Shown here in pieces: positions 2,780-13,902 of a DNA stretch of 35,939 nucleotides (position 1 is the stretch's first letter; every line of letters begins with the position of its first letter). The position numbers and the translations under genes are program-made. Source of the DNA: an uncultured Clostridia bacterium. Its GTDB lineage: Bacteria; Bacillota; Clostridia; UBA1381. The notes beneath the pieces are model-generated. The model searched no databases and was not told where the DNA came from. It saw only the letters and a list, made by a program, of their open reading frames with translations. Location: NCBI GenBank assembly GCA_947628515.1, contig CANRAG010000015.1, forward strand, positions 1-35,939, read 5' to 3'.

Positions 2780-3318
2780 AGCTTACCCTCTATCACTTCA
2801 AGGCTGAATTTGCCTCTGAATACTTCCTTCATTTCCACGGTTATAAAAACATGGACTATAAACTCGCCGTCATGGTTCCTTATAACCCTTGATTTCGCAA
2901 CGAGCTTCTCGCCCGCGCGCACTACGGAAACATATTTAACATTCGCCACCTTCACCAGCGCCGCGTCAGCGTTTATCACGCTTAGCGCAAGATTTTCGGC
3001 AAAAGCGTATATGCACTGGCTCTTTACCATATCCGTATTATGAAAGGACATGGTCGAATCCGTTTCAAGAATTGAAATGCCGTTTTCATACAGAGTTAAA
3101 TCGAGCAGTTCCTCTTTTTTCTCGCTGCCGTGCAGCTCGCCCTCCGCCGCGGATTTCACCCTCTCGCGGTACTCCGAGATGCCCATCTCGGCGCGGTCGT
3201 TGCGTATTGTTGACACGCTCACTCCACATTCCGCGGCAAGCTCCTCATCCTTAAGGAACGGATTTTCATTAAGCAGCGACATAAGAAATAAATGTCTTTC
3301 CTGCTTTGACATTCCCAT
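2776..3318 (-). CDS. fapR: Fatty acid and phospholipid biosynthesis repressor FapR
   Basis: Global lipid-synthesis repressor that leaves DNA when it binds malonyl-CoA. The protein has 180 residues with the chosen start. The N-terminus is a DeoR-like helix-turn-helix (CGVSVSTIRNDRAEMGI, about residues 29-45). The rest is a hotdog effector domain, with FHNTDMVKSQCIYAFAENLA corresponding to the malonyl-CoA pocket helix. I chose the ATG at 3318 because TACGGAGGTGG lies just upstream; an in-frame extension to 3396 has no ribosome site and would run across the probable operator. A promoter and an operator-like site sit directly upstream, so autoregulation is expected. It heads plsX-fabH-fabK. Confidence 0.93.
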   Translation of the reverse strand: MGMSKQERHLFLMSLLNENPFLKDEELAAECGVSVSTIRNDRAEMGISEYRERVKSAAEGELHGSEKKEELLDLTLYENGISILETDSTMSFHNTDMVKSQCIYAFAENLALSVINADAALVKVANVKYVSVVRAGEKLVAKSRVIRNHDGEFIVHVFITVEMKEVFRGKFSLEVIEGKL

Positions 3319-3353
3319 TGAAAATCCACCTCCGTATAAATTGATAATTCGTA

Positions 3354-3370
3354 TTAGTAGCTGGTCACAA
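3354..3370. promoter_or_regulatory. Probable FapR operator
   Basis: The 17-base plus-strand site TTAGTAGCTGGTCACAA matches 13 of 17 positions of the Bacillus FapR consensus as I recall it (TTAGTACCTRRTACTAA). One half-site is nearly perfect and the other is degraded. It lies about 8-24 bases past the expected transcription start of fapR and before its Shine-Dalgarno site. Binding there would fit a repressor that blocks its own operon. The consensus is from memory and binding is inferred. Confidence 0.65.
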
Positions 3371-3384
3371 ATCAGTATACAATC

Positions 3385-3413
3385 ATTATAAACCATGCGG
3401 ATATATATTGCAA
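3385..3413 (-). promoter_or_regulatory. Sigma-A-type promoter of fapR-plsX-fabH-fabK
   Basis: On the minus strand TTGCAA (3413-3408) and TATAAT (3390-3385) are separated by exactly 17 bases. The predicted start point near 3378 gives a leader of about 60 bases containing the FapR-like operator. The -10 element is perfect and the -35 matches 4 of 6. Confidence 0.75.
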
Positions 3414-3440
3414 GTTATAATTATCTTTTTTATTAAATAT

Positions 3441-3485
3441 CGTTAAATCACACAAAAGTGTATTAATATTTTGGTTAATTTAACG
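3441..3485. repeat. Spaced inverted repeat in azlD-fapR spacer
   Basis: CGTTAAAT (3441-3448) and ATTTAACG (3478-3485) are perfect inverted copies 29 bases apart. A small ACAC-AAAA-GTGT hairpin lies between them. The spacer is much more AT-rich than the neighbouring genes. It could be a regulator site or a chance product of AT richness; no function is assigned. Confidence 0.35.
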
Positions 3486-3494
3486 GTAATATCC

Positions 3495-3537
3495 ACAATA
3501 TAGTGTGCATAGTTATTCTGACTGCACATTATATTGT
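3495..3537. repeat. Long inverted repeat (15-base arms) after azlD
   Basis: The arms ACAATATAGTGTGCA (3495-3509) and TGCACATTATATTGT (3523-3537) pair over 15 positions with one mismatch, around a 13-base loop. Weaker pairing of AATAT with ATATT continues outside. No T-run follows on either strand, so it is not a standard intrinsic terminator. It may be a large operator, a transcript-stabilising hairpin at the end of azlCD, or a small palindromic element. Confidence 0.6.
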
Positions 3538-3541
3538 AATA

Positions 3542-3581
3542 TTTTCGTAAGATTTGACGTTTTATGCCGAATTTACGAAAA
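3542..3581. repeat. Inverted repeat spanning the azlD stop codon
   Basis: TTTTCGTAA (3542-3550) and TTACGAAAA (3573-3581) are perfect 9-base inverted copies separated by 22 bases. The second arm contains the azlD stop. Together with the next palindrome it might mark the 3' end of the azlCD transcript, but GC content is low and there is no poly-T tract. Confidence 0.35.
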
Positions 3582-3905
3582 CACGGTCTGAACCAATACC
3601 ATATAAAGAACCGTTCCGGCGCCGATTGATATAAGGGTGTTACGCCGCCATAGATATGTGCCCGCCACCACCGACGCCGCGATAAGCTCCGGCGCGGCAT
3701 GCGGCGGCGTGAATACGCTCACGGATTTAAAGCAATACACTGCCAGCATACCCATTACCGCGCCCGGAAGAACCGAGCCTAAGTATTTAACGGACTTTGG
3801 CAGCTTTTCATCGGAACGGAATATCACAAACGGCATAAAACGTATAGCTGCGGTTATCGCCGACATAACCGCTATGAGCAGCAGACTGTGTGATGTATTA
3901 ATCAT
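3573..3905 (-). CDS. azlD: AzlD-family branched-chain amino acid transport protein
   Basis: Small membrane partner of AzlC, together forming a branched-chain amino acid exporter in the cytoplasmic membrane. The protein has 110 residues, the usual length, with three or four hydrophobic segments: about residues 6-24, 39-61, 70-84 and 90-108. The family motif ITAAIRFMPFVIF is visible near residue 17, and LPKSVKYLGSVLPGAVMGML follows. It overlaps azlC by four bases (ATGA), indicating a coupled two-gene unit. No T-run terminator follows, only palindromic AT-rich sequence. The specific substrate is inferred from the family. Confidence 0.9.
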   Translation of the reverse strand: MINTSHSLLLIAVMSAITAAIRFMPFVIFRSDEKLPKSVKYLGSVLPGAVMGMLAVYCFKSVSVFTPPHAAPELIAASVVAGTYLWRRNTLISIGAGTVLYMVLVQTVFS

Positions 3906-4727: not shown

Positions 4728-6914
4728 TTACTCAGCATCCTCTGCCTGAACTTCCTCCGCGGGTGTTTCCTCTGTGGGAGCTTCCGCCTCTGTCGGTGCC
4801 TCCTCTGCGGGAGCTTCTTCAGCCGGAGCTTCCTCTATGGCCGGCGCCTCCTCTGCGGGAGCTTCTTCGGTCGGAGCTTCCTCCTCTGCCGGTGTCTCCT
4901 CTGCGGGAGCTTCCTCTGCCGGAGCGTCAACCTTTACTTCGGGATCTGTTGAATAAACAAGCATGGACTCCGGCTGAACGTCGTCATCCTCCTCCTGCTC
5001 CTCGGCAGGCTCTTTGGCGGGCTTTTCCTTCTCGATAAGCGCTCTTATCGAAAGGCTTATCTTCTTCTCGTCCCATTTGGCGTCGGTAACCTTTACCTCT
5101 ACCTCCTGACCGATCGAGAGAACATCCTCCGGCTTGCCTATTCTTCTATCGGCAATCTGCGAAATGTGAATAAGTCCGTCAACCGACGGGATGATCTCGG
5201 CAAACGCGCCAAACGGCATCATTCTTACAATCTTAACTGTTATAACGTCGCCGACATTAATCTTATTCTGCGCGATTACCCACGGGTTGTCCTCAAACTT
5301 CTTAAAGCCCAATGAAATCTTCTTGGTTTCAGGATTTATATCCTTTATATAAACATCCATTGTATCGCCTACAGCGCATACCTCCGACGGATGCTTGATC
5401 TTGTTCCATGAAAGCTCGCTTATGTGAACAAGTCCGTCAACGCCGCCGATGTCGACAAAAGCACCGAATGATGTAAGTGACTTAACCGTACCCGTGTAGT
5501 GCTTGCCTACCTCGGCAGCGGCCCAGAATGCATCCTCCCTGGCCTTGCGCTCCGCTTCGAGAATTACACGTGCTGAACCTACTACTCTCTTTCTTCTCTC
5601 ATCAAGCTCGATAAGCTTGAACTTCAAAGTTGTGCCTACAAGACTCTGAAGGTCTGACACATACCTCTCTGAAGCCTGACGCGCCGGAATAAATACCTGC
5701 GAGCCGTCCGTCAAAGCAATAACGCCGCCCTTAACAGCCTTTACTACCTTGCCCTCCATAATCTCACCAGATTCGTAAGCCGCTTTGATTTTGTTCCAGC
5801 TCTCCATAGCTACCAATTTCTTTCTTGATAAAACTACCTTTCCTTCAGCATCATTTACGCCTACAACGTAAACTTTGATGGTGTCGCCTTCCTTTACAAC
5901 ATCAGACGGCTCAAGTGACGGGTCATCCGTTATCTGATCTGCGGCAAGCTGACCGTTGTATTTAAATCCGCCCAGATCCAAGATTACTTCATTCTTGCGG
6001 ATTTCCACAACCTGTCCATCCACAATGTCCCCGTTGTTAAGAGTTTTCTGTTCGTAGTTTTCGAACAGCTCTGCAAAACTCTCCTCATTTTTTAAATTCT
6101 CACTCATAGCCTTTACTACCTCCTGGATAATACGCGCGGGCGTTGAGGCTCCCGCCGTAATTCCTATTTTATTATATTGTTTTTGCGGAAGCTCTTCCGC
6201 GGTTTGGACATGATAGGTCTCCGGACATACCCGCCGGCAAATCTCAAACAGCTTTTTTGTATTCGAACTGTTGCTTCCGCCGACAACGATCATACACTCG
6301 GATTCTGCCGCCAGCTCCGCAGCCTCGGACTGCCTATTCTTTGTCGCACTACATATTGTATCAAATTCCAGGGTACTTTTGCAAGTGTTTTTTAAAATTT
6401 GTACGATTTGCACAAAATTATTTTTTTTGATTGTTGTTTGTGCCACAACGCAGAGCGGTTTTTTTCCAAAATCTGTATTTATTTCCGTCGCGTCACTGTT
6501 TATTATAACAGCTTCGTTATCGCACCAACCGTTTATGCCCGTTACCTCCGGATGCTTTTCGTCGCCGACAATTACAATTTGGTATCCTTCGCCGTGGTAT
6601 TTCCGGACAATTTTATGGATTTTTTCAACAAACGGACATGTTAAATCCGTATACGGTCTTTGCCCGATTTTATCATACACATCCTTACCCACGCCGTGGG
6701 CGCGGATGACGATTTCACAATCATCCGGAATATCCTCCACGCGCTCGTATGAATACACCCCGCGCGCTTTTAAATCGTCAATTACCTGCTGATTATGAAT
6801 TATATCTCCGAGCGTCGCTATCTTTCGTCCTTCCTTTAACGCGTTATACACGCCGTCCACCGCTCGCTTGACCCCGAAGCAAAAGCCCGCCGTTTTCGCA
6901 ACCTTAACAGGCAT
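4728..6914 (-). CDS. ispH-rpsA: IspH-ribosomal protein S1 fusion
   Basis: One 728-residue protein. Residues 1-about 275 are 4-hydroxy-3-methylbut-2-enyl diphosphate reductase, the last enzyme of the MEP isoprenoid pathway; its Fe-S cysteines are Cys12 (GFCFGVKRAV), Cys93 (LTCPF) and Cys188 (TICSATKNRQ). Four S1 RNA-binding domains follow at about 294-365, 382-455, 468-538 and 553-624; the third and fourth carry FGAF and DGLxHIS signatures. The final 100 residues are acidic Ala-Pro-Glu repeats. This fusion is known in Clostridia, so it is not an assembly error. The ATG lies 18 bases after the kinase stop. Roles in translation and isoprenoid supply are both expected; whether S1 acts on the ribosome here is inference. 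Confidence 0.95.
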   Translation of the reverse strand: MPVKVAKTAGFCFGVKRAVDGVYNALKEGRKIATLGDIIHNQQVIDDLKARGVYSYERVEDIPDDCEIVIRAHGVGKDVYDKIGQRPYTDLTCPFVEKIHKIVRKYHGEGYQIVIVGDEKHPEVTGINGWCDNEAVIINSDATEINTDFGKKPLCVVAQTTIKKNNFVQIVQILKNTCKSTLEFDTICSATKNRQSEAAELAAESECMIVVGGSNSSNTKKLFEICRRVCPETYHVQTAEELPQKQYNKIGITAGASTPARIIQEVVKAMSENLKNEESFAELFENYEQKTLNNGDIVDGQVVEIRKNEVILDLGGFKYNGQLAADQITDDPSLEPSDVVKEGDTIKVYVVGVNDAEGKVVLSRKKLVAMESWNKIKAAYESGEIMEGKVVKAVKGGVIALTDGSQVFIPARQASERYVSDLQSLVGTTLKFKLIELDERRKRVVGSARVILEAERKAREDAFWAAAEVGKHYTGTVKSLTSFGAFVDIGGVDGLVHISELSWNKIKHPSEVCAVGDTMDVYIKDINPETKKISLGFKKFEDNPWVIAQNKINVGDVITVKIVRMMPFGAFAEIIPSVDGLIHISQIADRRIGKPEDVLSIGQEVEVKVTDAKWDEKKISLSIRALIEKEKPAKEPAEEQEEDDDVQPESMLVYSTDPEVKVDAPAEEAPAEETPAEEEAPTEEAPAEEAPAIEEAPAEEAPAEEAPTEAEAPTEETPAEEVQAEDAE
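4731..4928 (-). repeat. Degenerate tandem repeat encoding EAPAEE tail
   Basis: The last 66 codons of ispH-rpsA repeat units such as EEAPAEE, EETPAEE and EEAPTEE. The DNA repeats are imperfect GAGGAAGCTCC-like blocks of about 15-30 bases. Copy number could vary between strains by slippage. The encoded tail is disordered and strongly acidic. Confidence 0.8.
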
Positions 6915-6932: not shown

Positions 6933-9050
6933 TCATTCTACGCTGTGCACCGCTTCCGCCCAATCCGGCAGTCCGGTGAGACTGTTACAATATTCGAACA
7001 TATCCGTTATATCCACATCTTCCATAAGCGCAAAGCCGGATACATCTATACTGCTCAGAGCCTTGCAATCCGCGAACATATTGCTCATGTCCTTAACCTT
7101 TGACGTGTCAAAGCCGGACACGTCAATCGTCTTAAGCAAATCGCAAAAGCAGAACATGAACGACATCCTCTCCGCATTTGACGTGTTAAAGCCCGAAACA
7201 TCTATACTCTCAAGTGAACGGCAGAAAGAGAACATACCGCTCATATCCTTCGCGCTCGATGTGTCAAAGCCGGTCACATCAATACTTTTGAGCTTTTCAC
7301 AGCTTGAAAACATACTGCCGAAATTCGTAACCTTCGATGTGTTAAATCCGCTGACATCCAGTTCCTCAAGAGAGCTGCAATAATCGAACATATCCATCAT
7401 GCTATCCGCATTGGATGTGTCAAATCCCGTTACATCAATACTTTTGAGCGATTCACAGAATGCGAACATACTGTTGAAATCAGTGCATTTTGATGTGTTA
7501 AACCCGGTCATATCGGCCTGCGTAAGCGATGAGCAGTTATACATCATTCTCGAAAGGCTTTCAGCTTCGTCAACCCTGAAACAGCCGTTAAAGTTTATTT
7601 CCAGAACATTCTCGTAATTATAAAATAAATCCTCAGCGGCGTCCTTGCCGTTTATGCCTCCGTTTGCGCCTATATAAAGATTATATTTTCCCCCGCTTTT
7701 CTCCGCGGGCTCAACCCACGCCATGACCGATCCGTTTTTTGCGCCCGACACATCCCATGCGGTTTCATTTTTATTTTTGAGCGTATCGGTAAACGTAACG
7801 GAGACAATATCATTTCTTGTATAAGAATTGTTGGTAAGCACGTATTCATCCGTACTCACATCTGAAGAACCGCACATTACGTTGTTTACCCATGATGTGT
7901 CGGTTACGCGCGAACCGGATGAGGAACCGCCTATGCCTCTGTATATAAACATCCCCGTAACCATGCCTATAATACAAACGGCGAGCACGCTCGCCGCTAT
8001 AATAAGCGGACGCTTATTTTTGTTCTGCGGTCTTTCGGGGTTTTTGTAAGGCATCGGGCCATTTTGCAATCCCTGTGACGGCTGCACCGCCCCGCCGGTA
8101 AGCCCTGCTATGAACTCGTCCATGTTTCGAGTACGCTTTTCGGGCGCGGGAGCCAGCGCGCGCGCCATCGCCGATTTCTGCGCCGGCGTCAACGGCTTTT
8201 TCATTTTAACGTCAAGACTTGCCTTGTCGTTCATTATCCTGTCTATAGCCTCAGGCAGACATGCGCCCGTTATGCAATAATACATCGTCGCGGCAAATGA
8301 GTACACATCCGACCACGGGCCGGTAGAACCGTTACCCGAATACTGCTCAAACGGGCTGAAACTCTTTTTAACAACCAACTGCGACGCGTCGCCGGCCGAA
8401 ATATCCTTTGCCGCGCCCAAATCGAGCAAGCGGACGCTTCCGTCGGTGCGTATCATAATATTATCCGGACTTATATCGCGGTGCACTATCCCCATGCGGT
8501 GCAAACGCGCAAGTCCCTTCATGAGCGGCAAAAGCATACCCACGACCTCGTCAAAGCTCATGATACCGTTTCTTTTTATATAGGATTTAAGCGTTTCGCC
8601 CTCCACATAGTCCATTACTATATATGAGGTTCCGTTCTCTTCAAAGGCGTCAATAACCCTTACCACCTCCGGAATATCCGAAACCCGCGCCATCTTTCTC
8701 GCTTCGTTTATAAAGCTTGTCCTTCCTCTTTTGAGCGAGTCGAACATCTCTCCGGTCACATCCCAGCTTATGCTGTTACCGACAGAATTGTTACGGCTGC
8801 CCATGCTTCGGGGAAAATATTCCTTTATCGCGACACGCGAATTGAGCACAAGGTCATAGCCTATGTAGGTTATACCAAATCCTCCCTGGCCGATTACGCA
8901 GCCGACAAGATATCTGCCATGGAGTATCGTATTTGGCTTCATCGCAAACGGAATTGCGGCTTCCGACCCGTTTTTATGTCCGCAATTCGGGCAGTAGCCC
9001 CCGCTGCTTTTAAGCTCTGTCATACATTTCATACAACGATTTACTTCCAT
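6933..9050 (-). CDS. Zinc-ribbon Ser/Thr kinase with membrane span and BspA-type (DUF285) repeats
   Basis: This 705-residue protein has four parts. A zinc ribbon comes first (Cys6, Cys9, Cys20, Cys23). A eukaryote-like kinase domain spans about 46-315, with glycine loop GQGGFG, Lys76 in VAIKEYFP, HRDISPDN at 190-197 and DLG at 210-212. One transmembrane helix lies at about 348-371. The outer part ends in seven 26-residue repeats beginning at residues 513, 539, 565, 591, 617, 643 and 669, each built around a DVSGFNTS core, like BspA/DUF285 surface proteins. Catalytic Lys, Asp and Asn are kept, so activity is plausible. The ATG at 9050 follows GGGAGG. It sits between plsC and ispH-rpsA, only 18-25 bases from each. 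Ligand and targets are unknown. Confidence 0.88.
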   Translation of the reverse strand: MEVNRCMKCMTELKSSGGYCPNCGHKNGSEAAIPFAMKPNTILHGRYLVGCVIGQGGFGITYIGYDLVLNSRVAIKEYFPRSMGSRNNSVGNSISWDVTGEMFDSLKRGRTSFINEARKMARVSDIPEVVRVIDAFEENGTSYIVMDYVEGETLKSYIKRNGIMSFDEVVGMLLPLMKGLARLHRMGIVHRDISPDNIMIRTDGSVRLLDLGAAKDISAGDASQLVVKKSFSPFEQYSGNGSTGPWSDVYSFAATMYYCITGACLPEAIDRIMNDKASLDVKMKKPLTPAQKSAMARALAPAPEKRTRNMDEFIAGLTGGAVQPSQGLQNGPMPYKNPERPQNKNKRPLIIAASVLAVCIIGMVTGMFIYRGIGGSSSGSRVTDTSWVNNVMCGSSDVSTDEYVLTNNSYTRNDIVSVTFTDTLKNKNETAWDVSGAKNGSVMAWVEPAEKSGGKYNLYIGANGGINGKDAAEDLFYNYENVLEINFNGCFRVDEAESLSRMMYNCSSLTQADMTGFNTSKCTDFNSMFAFCESLKSIDVTGFDTSNADSMMDMFDYCSSLEELDVSGFNTSKVTNFGSMFSSCEKLKSIDVTGFDTSSAKDMSGMFSFCRSLESIDVSGFNTSNAERMSFMFCFCDLLKTIDVSGFDTSKVKDMSNMFADCKALSSIDVSGFALMEDVDITDMFEYCNSLTGLPDWAEAVHSVE
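6969..7514 (-). repeat. Seven in-phase 78-base coding repeats (DUF285 type)
   Basis: The 3' part of the kinase gene encodes seven copies of a 26-residue unit with no change in spacing. The consensus is roughly DVSGFNTS, then a variable six, then MF, then CxSLxSI. The DNA copies are diverged, so the array looks old rather than newly expanded. Confidence 0.85.
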
Positions 9051-9075
9051 ACGCTTTTCCTCCCGTATATTATAT

Positions 9076-9648
9076 TTATAAATTATATATCCTTTCCAAT
9101 ACCCCGTCCGCAAGCTCCTGCGTCTGCGCGGAATCGAGCTTTTTACCCTTGTACTGCGTAAAATCCATCGGCTCGCCGTATTTAACCGTTATTTTATGCA
9201 TCCATCTGTATTTGCCGTCTATATGCACCGGCACAACCGGCACTCCGCATTTTGCGGCAATAAGCGCCACGCCCGGCTTTGCGTCAGGCTTTTGCCCTGC
9301 CTTTACGCGTCTGCCCTCAGGGAATATCAGCATGACGCCGCCGGACCGGAATATTTTCAAAGCCGTTTTAAACGCCGCAATATCGCCGCGCCCCCTGTGT
9401 ATGGGGAACGCGCCGAGCTTCGTTATAAGACCGCCGAAAAGCTTGTTCTTAAACAACTCGCTCTTAGCCATGAAATTAAGCTGCCTCGGACATGTTATGC
9501 CCGCCATTACCGGATCGAGATTGCTGCTGTGGTTAAAAGCCACTATAACCGCACCGTCCTTTGGCACATTCTCTTTTCCCTCCACGCGTATTCTGAATAC
9601 CGGCAGTAAAAGAATTCTTACCAGCACCACGCAAAATGAGTAAAACAT
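9076..9648 (-). CDS. plsC: 1-acyl-sn-glycerol-3-phosphate acyltransferase (PlsC)
   Basis: Adds the second acyl chain to make phosphatidic acid at the membrane. The 190 residues are short but normal for Bacillota PlsC. Acyltransferase motifs are visible: the catalytic NHSSNLDP (HX4D) near residue 39, GAFPIHRGRGD near 82, FPEGRRVKAG near 109 and VPVVPVHI near 134. An N-terminal hydrophobic segment (about 3-19) may anchor it. The ATG at 9648 overlaps the preceding stop as TGATG and follows GGAGGTG at 8 bases; a TTG one codon earlier is less likely. It sits between the CMP kinase fusion and the repeat-bearing kinase. Confidence 0.94.
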   Translation of the reverse strand: MFYSFCVVLVRILLLPVFRIRVEGKENVPKDGAVIVAFNHSSNLDPVMAGITCPRQLNFMAKSELFKNKLFGGLITKLGAFPIHRGRGDIAAFKTALKIFRSGGVMLIFPEGRRVKAGQKPDAKPGVALIAAKCGVPVVPVHIDGKYRWMHKITVKYGEPMDFTQYKGKKLDSAQTQELADGVLERIYNL

Positions 9649-10688
9649 CAACCGTTCACCTCCGCTTTGCGTATCATGTCTATGACCGTCTCCGCCGACT
9701 GCTCAAAGTCCATGTCGCTTGTGTCCACCAAAACCGCGTCCTCCGCCTGCCGGAGCGGCGACACGGCTCTGTGCATGTCGTTGTAATCCCTTGTTATTAC
9801 ATCCTCTTTTATTTCGTTAAAATCACATTCCACGCCGTTTTCGAGATATTCGCGGTACCGGCGCACAGCTCGGTTTTCAACCGACGCCGTAAGATATATT
9901 TTAAGCTCCGCGTCGGGCAGAACCGTTGTGCCTATATCCCTGCCGTCCATTATCACGCCGCCCTTTTTCGCCATGCCGCGCTGCATGTTTACGAGCCGCT
10001 CTCTCACCTCCGGTATGGCAGCCACTGCCGACGCCGCCATAGACGCGTCGTTTTCGCGGATACGCTCCGTGACGTCCGCGCCGTTAAGGTACATACGCTG
10101 AACTCCGTTTTCATAGCTTATATCAATATGGATATTATCGAGCTCCGAAACGAGCCTGCCCCGCTCATTGACAGGGTCTATACCGTTTTCTATACCGTAA
10201 ACTCCGACCGTGCGATACATCGCTCCGGTGTCTATATAAATATACCCGAGCCTTGCCGCCGCGCGCTTGGCAACGGAGCTTTTTCCCGCGCCCGCCGGGC
10301 CGTCAATCGCTACGGAAATCTTCCCGCGCCGGCCTATATCGGGTCGCAGCACCGAAGCGCCGCGCAAATACGCGTGCACAAGCTCCGAATTGCCCTTATC
10401 GGTGTTTATGTATACCATAACCCTTATGCACATCGGAAGCGCGTTGTCAATATCGGGCGCTGCCATATCCAGAAGCGGAATGTCCGAAATGCTCATGCGC
10501 CTTACAGCCGCCGCCGGAAACGCGGCGGTCAGGTCGGGCGTTACCGTAAATATAATGCCCGCAATATCGTCCACGGCTATATTATTATCGTTTATAATCT
10601 GCAAAAACATCTCCTGAGTCGATGCAAATATTTCCTCTTTTGTATTCGCCGCCGCTGTTGTGGCGCCGCGTATCGCTCTTATTGCCAT
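9648..10688 (-). CDS. aroH-cmk: Chorismate mutase (AroH type)-cytidylate kinase fusion
   Basis: A single 346-residue frame. Residues 1-about 118 match monofunctional AroH chorismate mutase (chorismate to prephenate): RAIRGATTA start, TPDLTAAFPAAAVR, CIRVMVYINTD and YLRGASVLRPD. Residues about 122-346 form a full CMP kinase: P-loop DGPAGAGKSS at 129-138, DTGAMYRT, GRDIGTTVLPDA, and the ITRDYNDMHRAVSPL signature. The join is about four residues long and no stop or start interrupts it. Arg7, Arg63, Arg89, Tyr107 and Arg115 correspond to active-site positions of B. subtilis AroH, but the position of its Glu78 appears to be Ala77 here. CMP kinase activity is very likely; mutase activity is uncertain. 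The ATG follows AAAGGA. Confidence 0.92.
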   Translation of the reverse strand: MAIRAIRGATTAAANTKEEIFASTQEMFLQIINDNNIAVDDIAGIIFTVTPDLTAAFPAAAVRRMSISDIPLLDMAAPDIDNALPMCIRVMVYINTDKGNSELVHAYLRGASVLRPDIGRRGKISVAIDGPAGAGKSSVAKRAAARLGYIYIDTGAMYRTVGVYGIENGIDPVNERGRLVSELDNIHIDISYENGVQRMYLNGADVTERIRENDASMAASAVAAIPEVRERLVNMQRGMAKKGGVIMDGRDIGTTVLPDAELKIYLTASVENRAVRRYREYLENGVECDFNEIKEDVITRDYNDMHRAVSPLRQAEDAVLVDTSDMDFEQSAETVIDMIRKAEVNG

Positions 10689-10703: not shown

Positions 10704-11114
10704 TTATACTGCCCTGTGTCCCAGACCTATAACTATATCGTTGAGATTTAAAAGTCCGAGGGCGAAGAACAGACATACCGAGATATGCGAGCCGCTGCGC
10801 GCAATCCCGATTTTACCGCCCAGGTTCAGGCCGAAGCACTTGCTTGAAATCTGCTCGATCGCCTCGTGCGCCGCGCCCGCCACAGCGCCCTCCTCGGCAT
10901 GCGTATCGCCTATAACGCCCTCGCGCTTGGCCGCGACAACGGCGCGTTCGAGCATCTTCTGTACTCCGTTTCTGAACTCGCTCCCGAAATCCACGGCCGC
11001 CGCCTTTATTCCCATGTCCAAAAGCTCGGCCTTGACTTCATTTTCCTCCTCGCGCGTTTCGCTCATTGCCATGCGCACCGCCGCCTTACAAACTCTTTTG
11101 CTTCCTACTTCCAT
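10704..11114 (-). CDS. HutP-family protein
   Basis: The 136-residue product resembles clostridial HutP-family proteins. B. subtilis HutP is a hexameric RNA-binding antiterminator of the histidine utilisation operon, activated by histidine and metal. Recognisable stretches are GSKRVCKAAVRMAMSE, GIKAAAVDFGSEF, GVIGDTHAEEGAVAGAAHEA, GLNLGGKIGIA and the terminal GLGHRAV. There are no hut genes in the window, so the target RNA may differ and the hut role should not be assumed. The ATG at 11114 follows AAAGGAG at 9 bases; a longer frame upstream lacks a site. It lies 14-15 bases from both neighbours, the flavoprotein gene and aroH-cmk. Confidence 0.8.
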   Translation of the reverse strand: MEVGSKRVCKAAVRMAMSETREEENEVKAELLDMGIKAAAVDFGSEFRNGVQKMLERAVVAAKREGVIGDTHAEEGAVAGAAHEAIEQISSKCFGLNLGGKIGIARSGSHISVCLFFALGLLNLNDIVIGLGHRAV

Positions 11115-11128
11115 ACTTCCGTACTCCT

Positions 11129-12349
11129 TTACATTCCCGCGCTCATGCCCGCGAGATAGCCTGTTGACCACGCGCATTGCAGATTAAACCCGCCCGTGTA
11201 GCCGTCCACATCAATTATCTCACCCGCAAAATACAGTCCCTTCGTCTTTTTTGACTCCATTGTAGACGGGTCTATTTCACTCACCTTAACTCCGCCGGAG
11301 GTCACAATCGCCTCCGCAATCGGGCGAAACCCCGTTATGTGCAGAGTAAGCCCCTTTATTGCCTCGCCCAGCCTTCGGCGCTCCTGCTTTGTGATTTCAT
11401 TAACGCTCTTATGCGGTTCTATCATGGCAATATCAATCACCACCGGTATCAGCGCCTTCGGCAAAAGCGCGTCCAAGGCGTTTATGATATGCTTATTTTT
11501 CTGTTTCTCAAAGTCGCGCAGAATACGCGCGTCAAGCTGCTGCGCGTCCAGGGCCGGTTTTAAATCTATTATTATCTCACAGCCGCCCTTTAAATTCTTT
11601 ATATGCGCCGAAAGCGACAGTATAAGCGGGCCGGATACCCCGAAATGGGTAAATAACATTTCCCCAAATCCGGAATGAATACGTTTCCCGTCTTTGGCAT
11701 ATGCGGTCACTTCGACATTTTTAAGAGACAGTCCCATGAGGCTTTCGCACCATTTTTCCCGCGCCGTTAGCGGCACCAATGACGGAACGGGCTTTATTAT
11801 GGTATGCCCCGCCGCCCTTGCGAGTCTGTATCCCGAACCGTCAGAACCGGTCTGCGGATACGATGCGCCGCCGGTGCATAGTATAACCCTTTCGCCCGTT
11901 ACAGTGCCGGAGGTCGTGTTTACGCCCGTTATCCTGCCGTTCTCCGTAAGGAGCGATTTAACCTCCGCCTTAATAAGCTTCACATTATTCTGTAACGCGT
12001 ATTTTCGCATTGCCCGAACCACATCGCGCGCGTCGTCGCTTTCGGGAAAAACCCGTCCGCCGCGCTCGACCTTTGTCTTGACGCCGTAGCTTTCCATAAG
12101 CTCCGTTATATCGTCATTGGTAAAGGTGTAGAGCGCCGAATAAAGGAACCTTCCGTTTACCGGATACATCTCTATCATATCTTCTATATCACAGGCATTG
12201 GTTATGTTGCACCGTCCCTTGCCCGTAATTCTCAGCTTGCGCCCCACCGCGTCGTTTTTCTCTATAAGCACGACCTTGTCGGCTGTTTTTGCGGCTGTTC
12301 CGGCGGCCATAAGCCCCGCCGCGCCCGCGCCGCATACTATAACGGTCAT
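11129..12349 (-). CDS. HI0933/BaiN-family flavoprotein, NAD(P)/FAD-dependent oxidoreductase
   Basis: A 406-residue flavoprotein of the HI0933 family, to which the bile-acid enzyme BaiN belongs. It opens with the dinucleotide-binding motif VIVCGAGAAGLMAAG, followed by the family signature GKGRCNITNAC near residue 47. CTGGASYPQTGSDGSGYRLA lies near residue 160, and the C-terminal GEIIDVDGYTGGFNLQCAWSTG is the second FAD motif. ATG at 12349 overlaps the preceding stop as ATGA and follows GGGGTG. The substrate cannot be told from sequence, and a bile-acid role should not be assumed. Neighbours give no pathway hint. Confidence 0.88.
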   Translation of the reverse strand: MTVIVCGAGAAGLMAAGTAAKTADKVVLIEKNDAVGRKLRITGKGRCNITNACDIEDMIEMYPVNGRFLYSALYTFTNDDITELMESYGVKTKVERGGRVFPESDDARDVVRAMRKYALQNNVKLIKAEVKSLLTENGRITGVNTTSGTVTGERVILCTGGASYPQTGSDGSGYRLARAAGHTIIKPVPSLVPLTAREKWCESLMGLSLKNVEVTAYAKDGKRIHSGFGEMLFTHFGVSGPLILSLSAHIKNLKGGCEIIIDLKPALDAQQLDARILRDFEKQKNKHIINALDALLPKALIPVVIDIAMIEPHKSVNEITKQERRRLGEAIKGLTLHITGFRPIAEAIVTSGGVKVSEIDPSTMESKKTKGLYFAGEIIDVDGYTGGFNLQCAWSTGYLAGMSAGM

Positions 12350-13902
12350 TTTACACCCCAATTCTCGGTCATTCTCACATACCCCTCAACGGAGGGGCTC
12401 ACGTCGGTCTTTATCTTCGCGCTCGTTACAATGCTGTTTTTTATAAAGCACACCGGCGAAAACGGCATGTCCTCGTATACTCTGCCGTAAAGCTCCTTCG
12501 CAACCGCCTTCATGTCCGCGTCAAGCGAAACCGTACCCATCTGAGCGAGCAGCGTGTCCGTATCCGGATCGGCGTATCCGAAATAGTTGCCCGACGACGC
12601 CGCAAGCGGCGTCAAATCGTTATTTGGAAGAAGCTCCGTCTCGCCCACGAATAAATCATAATCCTTAATGTTTATTCTGTAATTCAATTCCGAAGCCGTG
12701 CATTTGATAACATTTGCCCTCATTCCTATTGTGTTCATCTTATTCGCAAGCTCTGCGGCAAGCTTAACCCGCTCCTCGCTCTCGCTGTTTACAAGTATGC
12801 GCACCGAAAAATAGGTAAGCCCCGCGGGCGCCGCTTTATAATACGTGCCGTTGCCGTCGGTTTTCCAACCCGCGTTTTCCAGCAGCGAAACCGCGCCGTT
12901 TTCGTCGGCGCGCAGCTTCTTTCTGTCGTCAAATCCGAGCCACGACGCCGGATTTAGCGCGTATTCGCTCGCGACAGCGCGCGAATAATAGATACGCGTA
13001 ACCACATCGTCCCTGTCTATGAGCATTGACACGGCCTTTCGCGCCGCGTTATCGGCAAACACGGGGCTTGTCATGTTATATCCTATAAACACCATGTCGT
13101 TTGATATAAAATCCCTCACCTTCGCGTTGCCTCTGGGCATATAATTTGACATGTCAAGCATCTCTGATGTGGCAATATCCGTTACGCTCGCATTAAAAAG
13201 CGAAACGTACTTGTCATTATCGGGAATGGCGCGTATATTTATCCTGTCGAGCTTTGCCCGCGTATCGTGATGGTCCGAAAACGCCGTAAGATTTGCTCCG
13301 TCATAGTAAAACGGTCCCGTCCCCACCGGTGAAAAGCTCCCGTTCATGGAGCCGTTTTTTACAATGGGGAATATAAACAGCGCTGCGCTGTTGGGCACGG
13401 CGCGGTTAAACTTCACTTCAAGTGTTGTGTCGTCCACCGCCCGCGCGGACGCTATGGGCGCTGCCAAATCGTCATAGGGCGTGCCGCCCGTCTTTATTCT
13501 GTTTATTGTATATACCACATCGGCAGCCGTGAACGCTGTGCCGTCATGCCATTTAACGTTTTGCTTAAGATTTATCGTAACGCCCGTTCCGTCCGCGCTG
13601 TATACATACGACTGCGCCAAAACCCCCGTCGTTTTTAAATCGCCGTCAAGCCCGAAAAGCGGCTCGAATATAAATCCGCATATATCCCTGACCGTGGGCG
13701 ACTTGGTCGTAAACGGATTATACTCGTCAAAATCCGTAAGCCCCACCGTAATGTCATTTGTTATATCGCTCTCCGCTCCGGCCTCGCCGTCCTGCGCTCC
13801 GTCATCCTCCGAAACGAAACCGTGCAGATAATCGGCAAACGAGCAGGAGCACAGGCAAAATGCCAGCATACATGCTGTTATTACGCTTATAAGCTTTCTC
13901 AT
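12346..13902 (-). CDS. Family 5 ABC transporter substrate-binding lipoprotein (orphan)
   Basis: A 518-residue extracytoplasmic solute-binding protein of the peptide/nickel (SBP_bac_5) family. The first 19 residues form a lipoprotein signal with probable lipobox LCSC and modified Cys20. An acidic Gly/Asp linker follows (about 30-48). The family signature LKQNVKWHDGTAFTAADVV lies near residue 115, and a VGTGPFYY segment follows near 193. No permease or ATPase genes are near, so it must work with transporter parts encoded elsewhere or act as a sensor. It overlaps pgeF by four bases and the flavoprotein gene by four. Ligand is unknown; oligopeptide is the default guess. Confidence 0.9.
   Translation of the reverse strand: MRKLISVITACMLAFCLCSCSFADYLHGFVSEDDGAQDGEAGAESDITNDITVGLTDFDEYNPFTTKSPTVRDICGFIFEPLFGLDGDLKTTGVLAQSYVYSADGTGVTINLKQNVKWHDGTAFTAADVVYTINRIKTGGTPYDDLAAPIASARAVDDTTLEVKFNRAVPNSAALFIFPIVKNGSMNGSFSPVGTGPFYYDGANLTAFSDHHDTRAKLDRINIRAIPDNDKYVSLFNASVTDIATSEMLDMSNYMPRGNAKVRDFISNDMVFIGYNMTSPVFADNAARKAVSMLIDRDDVVTRIYYSRAVASEYALNPASWLGFDDRKKLRADENGAVSLLENAGWKTDGNGTYYKAAPAGLTYFSVRILVNSESEERVKLAAELANKMNTIGMRANVIKCTASELNYRINIKDYDLFVGETELLPNNDLTPLAASSGNYFGYADPDTDTLLAQMGTVSLDADMKAVAKELYGRVYEDMPFSPVCFIKNSIVTSAKIKTDVSPSVEGYVRMTENWGVK

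Follow-up and report, generated by a model that had tools for sequence, protein, structure and literature searches.

This locus raises the question of whether two enzymes that serve different pathways, a chorismate mutase of the AroH class and a cytidylate kinase (Cmk), are genuinely encoded as one protein and, if so, how often and by what route their genes were joined and whether both halves still work. The window, i.e., the whole stretch of DNA analysed, is a contig of 35,939 nucleotides from an uncultured member of the Clostridia. We consider it very likely that its aroH-cmk frame is a genuine bifunctional enzyme gene that was made by in-frame joining of the operon neighbours aroH and cmk. 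The data below establish the domain architecture, its recurrence, the lack of an internal start, and the conservation of catalytic residues.

The fused gene and its junction

The fusion gene and its parts are as follows.

9648..10688, minus strand: aroH-cmk fusion gene, 346 amino acids (open frame; Pfam and NCBIfam; nine further genomes of the genus)
10335..10682, minus strand: AroH-class chorismate mutase domain, residues 3-118 (CM_1, TIGR01796, model compared with 1com)
10320..10334, minus strand: linker GRRGK, residues 119-123 (junction codons)
9669..10319, minus strand: cytidylate kinase domain, residues 124-340 (Cytidylate_kin, TIGR00017, invariant columns, model compared with 2cmk)

An initial annotation had proposed that a single frame holds a complete AroH domain and a complete kinase, and Pfam confirmed this on the minus strand. 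CM_1 (PF07736) covers residues 3-118 (E 4e-41; profile positions 1-116 of 116), and Cytidylate_kin (PF02224) covers residues 126-340 (E 3.3e-69; profile positions 1-210 of 211); both domains are complete in the 346-residue frame. Both halves also score above the curated cut-offs, the AroH half with 140.5 bits versus 27 in Pfam and 126 versus 82 for TIGR01796, and the kinase half with 233.3 bits versus 26 in Pfam and 227.1 versus 135.55 for TIGR00017. A plus-strand frame at the same coordinates was rejected, as Pfam gave no family for it. At the junction, the protein reads LRPDI-GRRGK-ISVAIDGPAGAGKSS, with a linker of ∼5 residues encoded within the codons CTG CGA CCC GAT ATA GGC CGG CGC GGG AAG ATT TCC GTA GCG ATT GAC. 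Among the junction codons after LRPD, there is no stop, no ATG, GTG, or TTG, and no Shine-Dalgarno-like motif. Because none of the three start codons is present, separate initiation of the kinase at a usual start codon is impossible.

The genome is a draft of 224 contigs, and a stop between two genes might thus have been deleted by an assembly or sequencing error. The same open junction, however, is shared by nine further genomes from the genus, the proteins of which are 67-78% identical to the window protein, and in the isolate genome of Niameybacter massiliensis (NZ_LN875035.1), in which the fusion was confirmed using Pfam. Because the nine congeneric genomes encode this junction in different DNA, an error in the contig is excluded as its cause, and we regard the chance of such an artefact as negligible. 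Altogether, 10 of the 16 genomes of the genus carry the fusion, four have separate adjacent genes (G002, G006, G007, and G014), and two were unreadable. Constraining the fused genes of the genus to one clade gave a likelihood above that of the free tree (p-AU 0.59); the single clade is thus not rejected, and these 10 genomes represent a lineage in which the fusion has become fixed, a question raised by the initial annotation. The aroH-cmk fusion is therefore real, fixed, and, as described below, recurrent.

Catalytic residues of the two halves

The AroH half differs from the AroH of Bacillus subtilis (BsCM; 1com) at BsCM positions 75 and 78, among others, which lie within the following codons.

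10458..10469, minus strand: codons Asp74 (BsCM 75) to Ala77 (BsCM 78) (alignment to 1com and column check of 123 sequences)

In B. subtilis AroH, Glu78 forms a hydrogen bond with the substrate's C4 hydroxyl and lies beside Cys75 (PMC10782440). The window protein has Ala at the position of the catalytic Glu78 and Asp at that of Cys75, while Arg7, Arg63, Arg90, Tyr108, and Arg116 (BsCM numbering) are all present. Its membership of the AroH class rests on the defining features of the family, fold and profile; it departs from the class in this catalytic detail. Position 78 lacks an acid (Ala, Gln, Ser, or His) in 38 of the 123 AroH sequences, and all 38 have Asp75; another 82 have an acid at 78 without Asp75, and only three have Asp75 together with Glu78. 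The combination of Asp75 with loss of the acid at 78 occurs in family f1 and in f123/f153. The tree implies some two gains of Asp75 and some three changes of the acid at 78, each of the latter in a background that has Asp75. With so few events, the Fisher p of 1e-28 for this association is a count over sequences rather than over events. Based on this pattern, the catalytic carboxylate has apparently moved from position 78 to position 75; because the catalytic Glu78 is replaced by Ala, the mutase activity of the window protein depends on Asp75 taking over. In work by Kast and co-workers, laboratory selection reportedly yielded a rescue of the loss of Glu78 by Asp75, and the moved carboxylate would be a natural counterpart to classic laboratory work on the AroH mechanism. 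We also considered that Asp75 and Ala78 arrived together with the fusion but rejected this idea, as both are present in unfused relatives and the traits are uncoupled on the tree.

The Ala at position 78 could also be taken to mean that the AroH half has lost its function and now serves merely as an oligomerisation part for the kinase. We find this highly improbable: the five other active-site residues are kept, all sequences lacking the acid at 78 carry Asp75, and unfused relatives share the same change. Moreover, the AroH half is the sole chorismate mutase found in the genome (99.6% complete), which has this one CM_1 match and none to CM_2; a prephenate dehydratase is encoded elsewhere in a separate frame of 271 amino acids. 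Finally, dN/dS in the fused genes of the genus is low in both halves (∼0.12-0.14, a rough value because dS is near saturation), indicating purifying selection on both domains.

The kinase half contains the P-loop GPAGAGKSS, the CMP-binding motif DTGAMYR, and the motifs GRDI and RD..D..R, and all invariant columns of alignment A2 are present in the window protein. This alignment, in which the AroH half comes from three sequences, was used for an AlphaFold model of the monomer; an earlier alignment (A1), in which lone AroH rows were misplaced, was dropped. The model has a pLDDT of 89.9; its pTM of 0.72 and the low confidence at about residues 111-120 make the domain arrangement tentative. Its kinase half best matches 2cmk (Z 24.9, rmsd 3.5, 221 aligned residues), and its AroH half matches the AroH enzymes of Thermus thermophilus and B. 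subtilis (Z 19.7-19.8, rmsd 1.2-1.4, 113-116 aligned; for 1com, Z 19.7, rmsd 1.4, 116 aligned). The fusion protein most likely retains both activities, in which case the AroH half would supply prephenate for Phe and Tyr, and the Cmk half would phosphorylate CMP and dCMP.

Gene neighbourhood and origin of the fusions

The fusion gene is part of a minus-strand cluster in the order HI0933-family flavoprotein gene, hutP, aroH-cmk, plsC, protein-kinase/DUF285 gene, and ispH-rpsA.

11129..12361, minus strand: HI0933-family flavoprotein, upstream neighbour (PF03486, E 6.5e-87)
10704..11177, minus strand: HutP, upstream neighbour (PF09021, E 1.4e-47)
9076..9651, minus strand: plsC-type acyltransferase, next gene (PF01553, E 3e-29)
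6933-9113, minus-strand cluster: protein kinase with C-terminal DUF285 repeats, between plsC and ispH-rpsA
4728..6914, minus strand: ispH-rpsA (S1) fusion, downstream in the same cluster (NF000907, 745.6 bits versus a cut-off of 624)

One ATG in the plsC frame overlaps the stop of the kinase (TGATG). The positions of the HI0933, plsC, and ispH-rpsA genes are kept at several other loci, both fused and unfused, and the HI0933 gene is also in place at loci L143, L152, and L161; the Niameybacter locus has another upstream neighbour and lacks plsC. HutP, which in Bacillus is a histidine-responsive RNA-binding antiterminator, is encoded just upstream of aroH-cmk in the window, and the same holds in G006 (L161), where ispH-rpsA directly follows plsC. 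In other bacteria, a gene string aroF(aroA)>cmk>rpsA has been described (PMC1173090), and the link of an aromatic gene with cmk and rpsA is therefore old.

To follow the gene pair beyond the genus, 391 genomes were drawn from across the class, 86 of which have AroH. A fused frame is present in 18 of these 86 (∼1/5), with the kinase confirmed by translation in all 18, and these fusions are spread over nine families (f1, f15, f34, f44, f52, f63, f70, f77, and f80). One further fusion was found outside the class (G709, family f123). Restriction of the fusion to the window genus was consequently rejected. Three f1 genera with long frames (G016, G018, and G034) were rejected as fused, as stops separate their genes. 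At every class locus that was read, cmk immediately follows aroH or is fused to it, bearing out the earlier suggestion that the two are separate neighbours in related genomes, while in other classes cmk was nearby at only two of the 20 AroH loci fetched. Because aroH and cmk are nearly always side by side in Clostridia, aroH-cmk is a genuine but rather ordinary fusion of neighbouring genes.

AroH has other partners as well. Outside the class, AroH is fused to a class I/II aminotransferase at L163 (G676:C14, AroH match 3286-3633), a partner that is possibly pathway-related. At L165 (G718:C62, AroH match 3031-3375), a type II dehydroquinase is fused N-terminal to an AroH that carries both Asp75 and Glu78.

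In unfused relatives, aroH and cmk are separated by anything from an overlap to about 200 nt, the short spacers containing little besides a stop and an ATG with its ribosome-binding site. In G002, from the same genus, TAG is directly followed by ATG in frame, placing this locus, as judged from its sequence, one step short of fusion. In the fused genes, the spacer stretch is gone, and the kinase ATG is kept at the junction only in G272; the distance from LRPD in AroH to DGP in the kinase P-loop is 14-18 codons except in G258 (26) and G096 (45). The initial annotation had suggested the loss of a stop between neighbours. The region between the genes was indeed lost; however, because the kinase ATG is also absent from all fused genes but one, fusion involved more than loss of the stop. 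We suggest that the fusions started from the arrangement usual in Clostridia, with aroH directly upstream of cmk and a short spacer in which the aroH stop and a ribosome-binding site precede the cmk ATG, and that an in-frame deletion of this spacer in a tight operon brought the final motif of AroH (LRPD-L/I) up against the kinase's first beta strand. Such a deletion would be tolerated since both ends that it joins, the C-terminus of AroH and the N-terminus of the kinase, are free. This would have happened in about ten separate lineages, once in the ancestor of most of the window genus. At some unfused loci (L206, L207, L208, and L221), a hairpin-like sequence lies between aroH and cmk; it is possibly a terminator or attenuator that fusion would remove.

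The nearly identical junction everywhere could instead suggest a single fusion early in Clostridia that was afterwards split in most lineages. In the tree of both domains (101 rows; 22 of 98 inner branches weak), the fewest state changes number 14. Using a 50-row subset for all AU clade tests other than that of the genus, a single clade was rejected for all fused rows (p-AU 8e-58), for the fused genes outside the genus (p-AU 1e-5), and for the two f1 fusions (p-AU 0.006), and weakly rejected for f44, f52, and f63 together (p-AU 0.015). These tests alone do not exclude fission, and parsimony carries most of the weight: a single ancient fusion would require about 30 fissions, each of which had to recreate a stop as well as an ATG with its ribosome-binding site, and unfused relatives have diverse spacers that range from an overlap up to nearly 200 nt and in some cases contain hairpins. 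We therefore consider a single early fusion very unlikely. Counting gains only, the free tree has 15 all-fused clades, a number that falls to 12 when the genus is counted as a single event. We estimate that independent fusions number roughly 9-12, a count that hinges on a two-gene tree with weak inner branches, and that nearly all of them used one junction; this scenario fits the data better than a single fusion followed by ∼30 fissions.

Oligomeric state and comparison with known fusions

AroH-class mutases form homotrimers with their active sites between subunits, the AroH of B. subtilis being a trimer, and by analogy, the fusion protein is likely trimeric. The initial annotation asked whether the AroH trimer makes the kinase trimeric as well, which is plausible; because AroH enzymes are trimeric, the kinase would probably be held outside the AroH trimer by the short tether. 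Because the mutase and kinase reactions share no metabolite, channelling is not expected, and any benefit of the fusion likely lies in fixed co-expression and stoichiometry. We also considered that the recurrent junction was selected, with the AroH trimer making the kinase an obligate trimer and the binding of chorismate or prephenate altering CMP kinase activity, or the reverse, so that the kinase is coupled to aromatic flux; we think this improbable. The locus offers a natural repeat experiment in which neighbours from unrelated pathways were fused about ten times, each time nearly at one residue; sister species with separate genes allow direct comparison. It is therefore testable whether such a fusion needs a metabolic reason or just gene order and structural tolerance.

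Whether the fusion is already widely catalogued was checked in part. NCBIfam has three models for Cmk fusions, with AroA, PanC, and Der as partners and none with AroH, and our literature search found no paper on an AroH-Cmk fusion; automatic listings of domain architectures may contain it. Against PRK11860, PRK13477, and PRK09518, the window protein scores 195, 239, and 179 bits (cut-offs 943, 524, and 953), matching with the kinase part only. AroH thus joins AroA, PanC, and Der, the known fusion partners of this kinase, as a new one. The PanC-Cmk (NF010004) and Cmk-Der (NF007071) proteins are alike in joining the kinase to a protein of another pathway but differ in the partner, and the kinase part alone matches. 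AroA-Cmk (NF008816, PRK11860) is similar in having an aromatic-pathway enzyme N-terminal to the kinase, in agreement with the aroF(aroA)>cmk>rpsA string (PMC1173090); its partner, however, is EPSP synthase and not chorismate mutase. The monofunctional AroH enzymes of B. subtilis (1com) and Clostridium thermocellum (1xho) share the fold and most active-site residues with the window protein but lack a kinase, which in the window protein takes the place of the C-terminal tail; in addition, Cys75 and Glu78 of the B. subtilis enzyme correspond to Asp and Ala. The bifunctional AroQ mutases (PheA, TyrA, and the exported CM-CDT; PMC10520331) are also chorismate mutases within bifunctional proteins; in contrast to the window protein, they have the AroQ fold, and their partners catalyse the step that follows in the same pathway. 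In the exported CM-CDT, fusion brings no catalytic benefit compared with the separated domains (PMC10520331).
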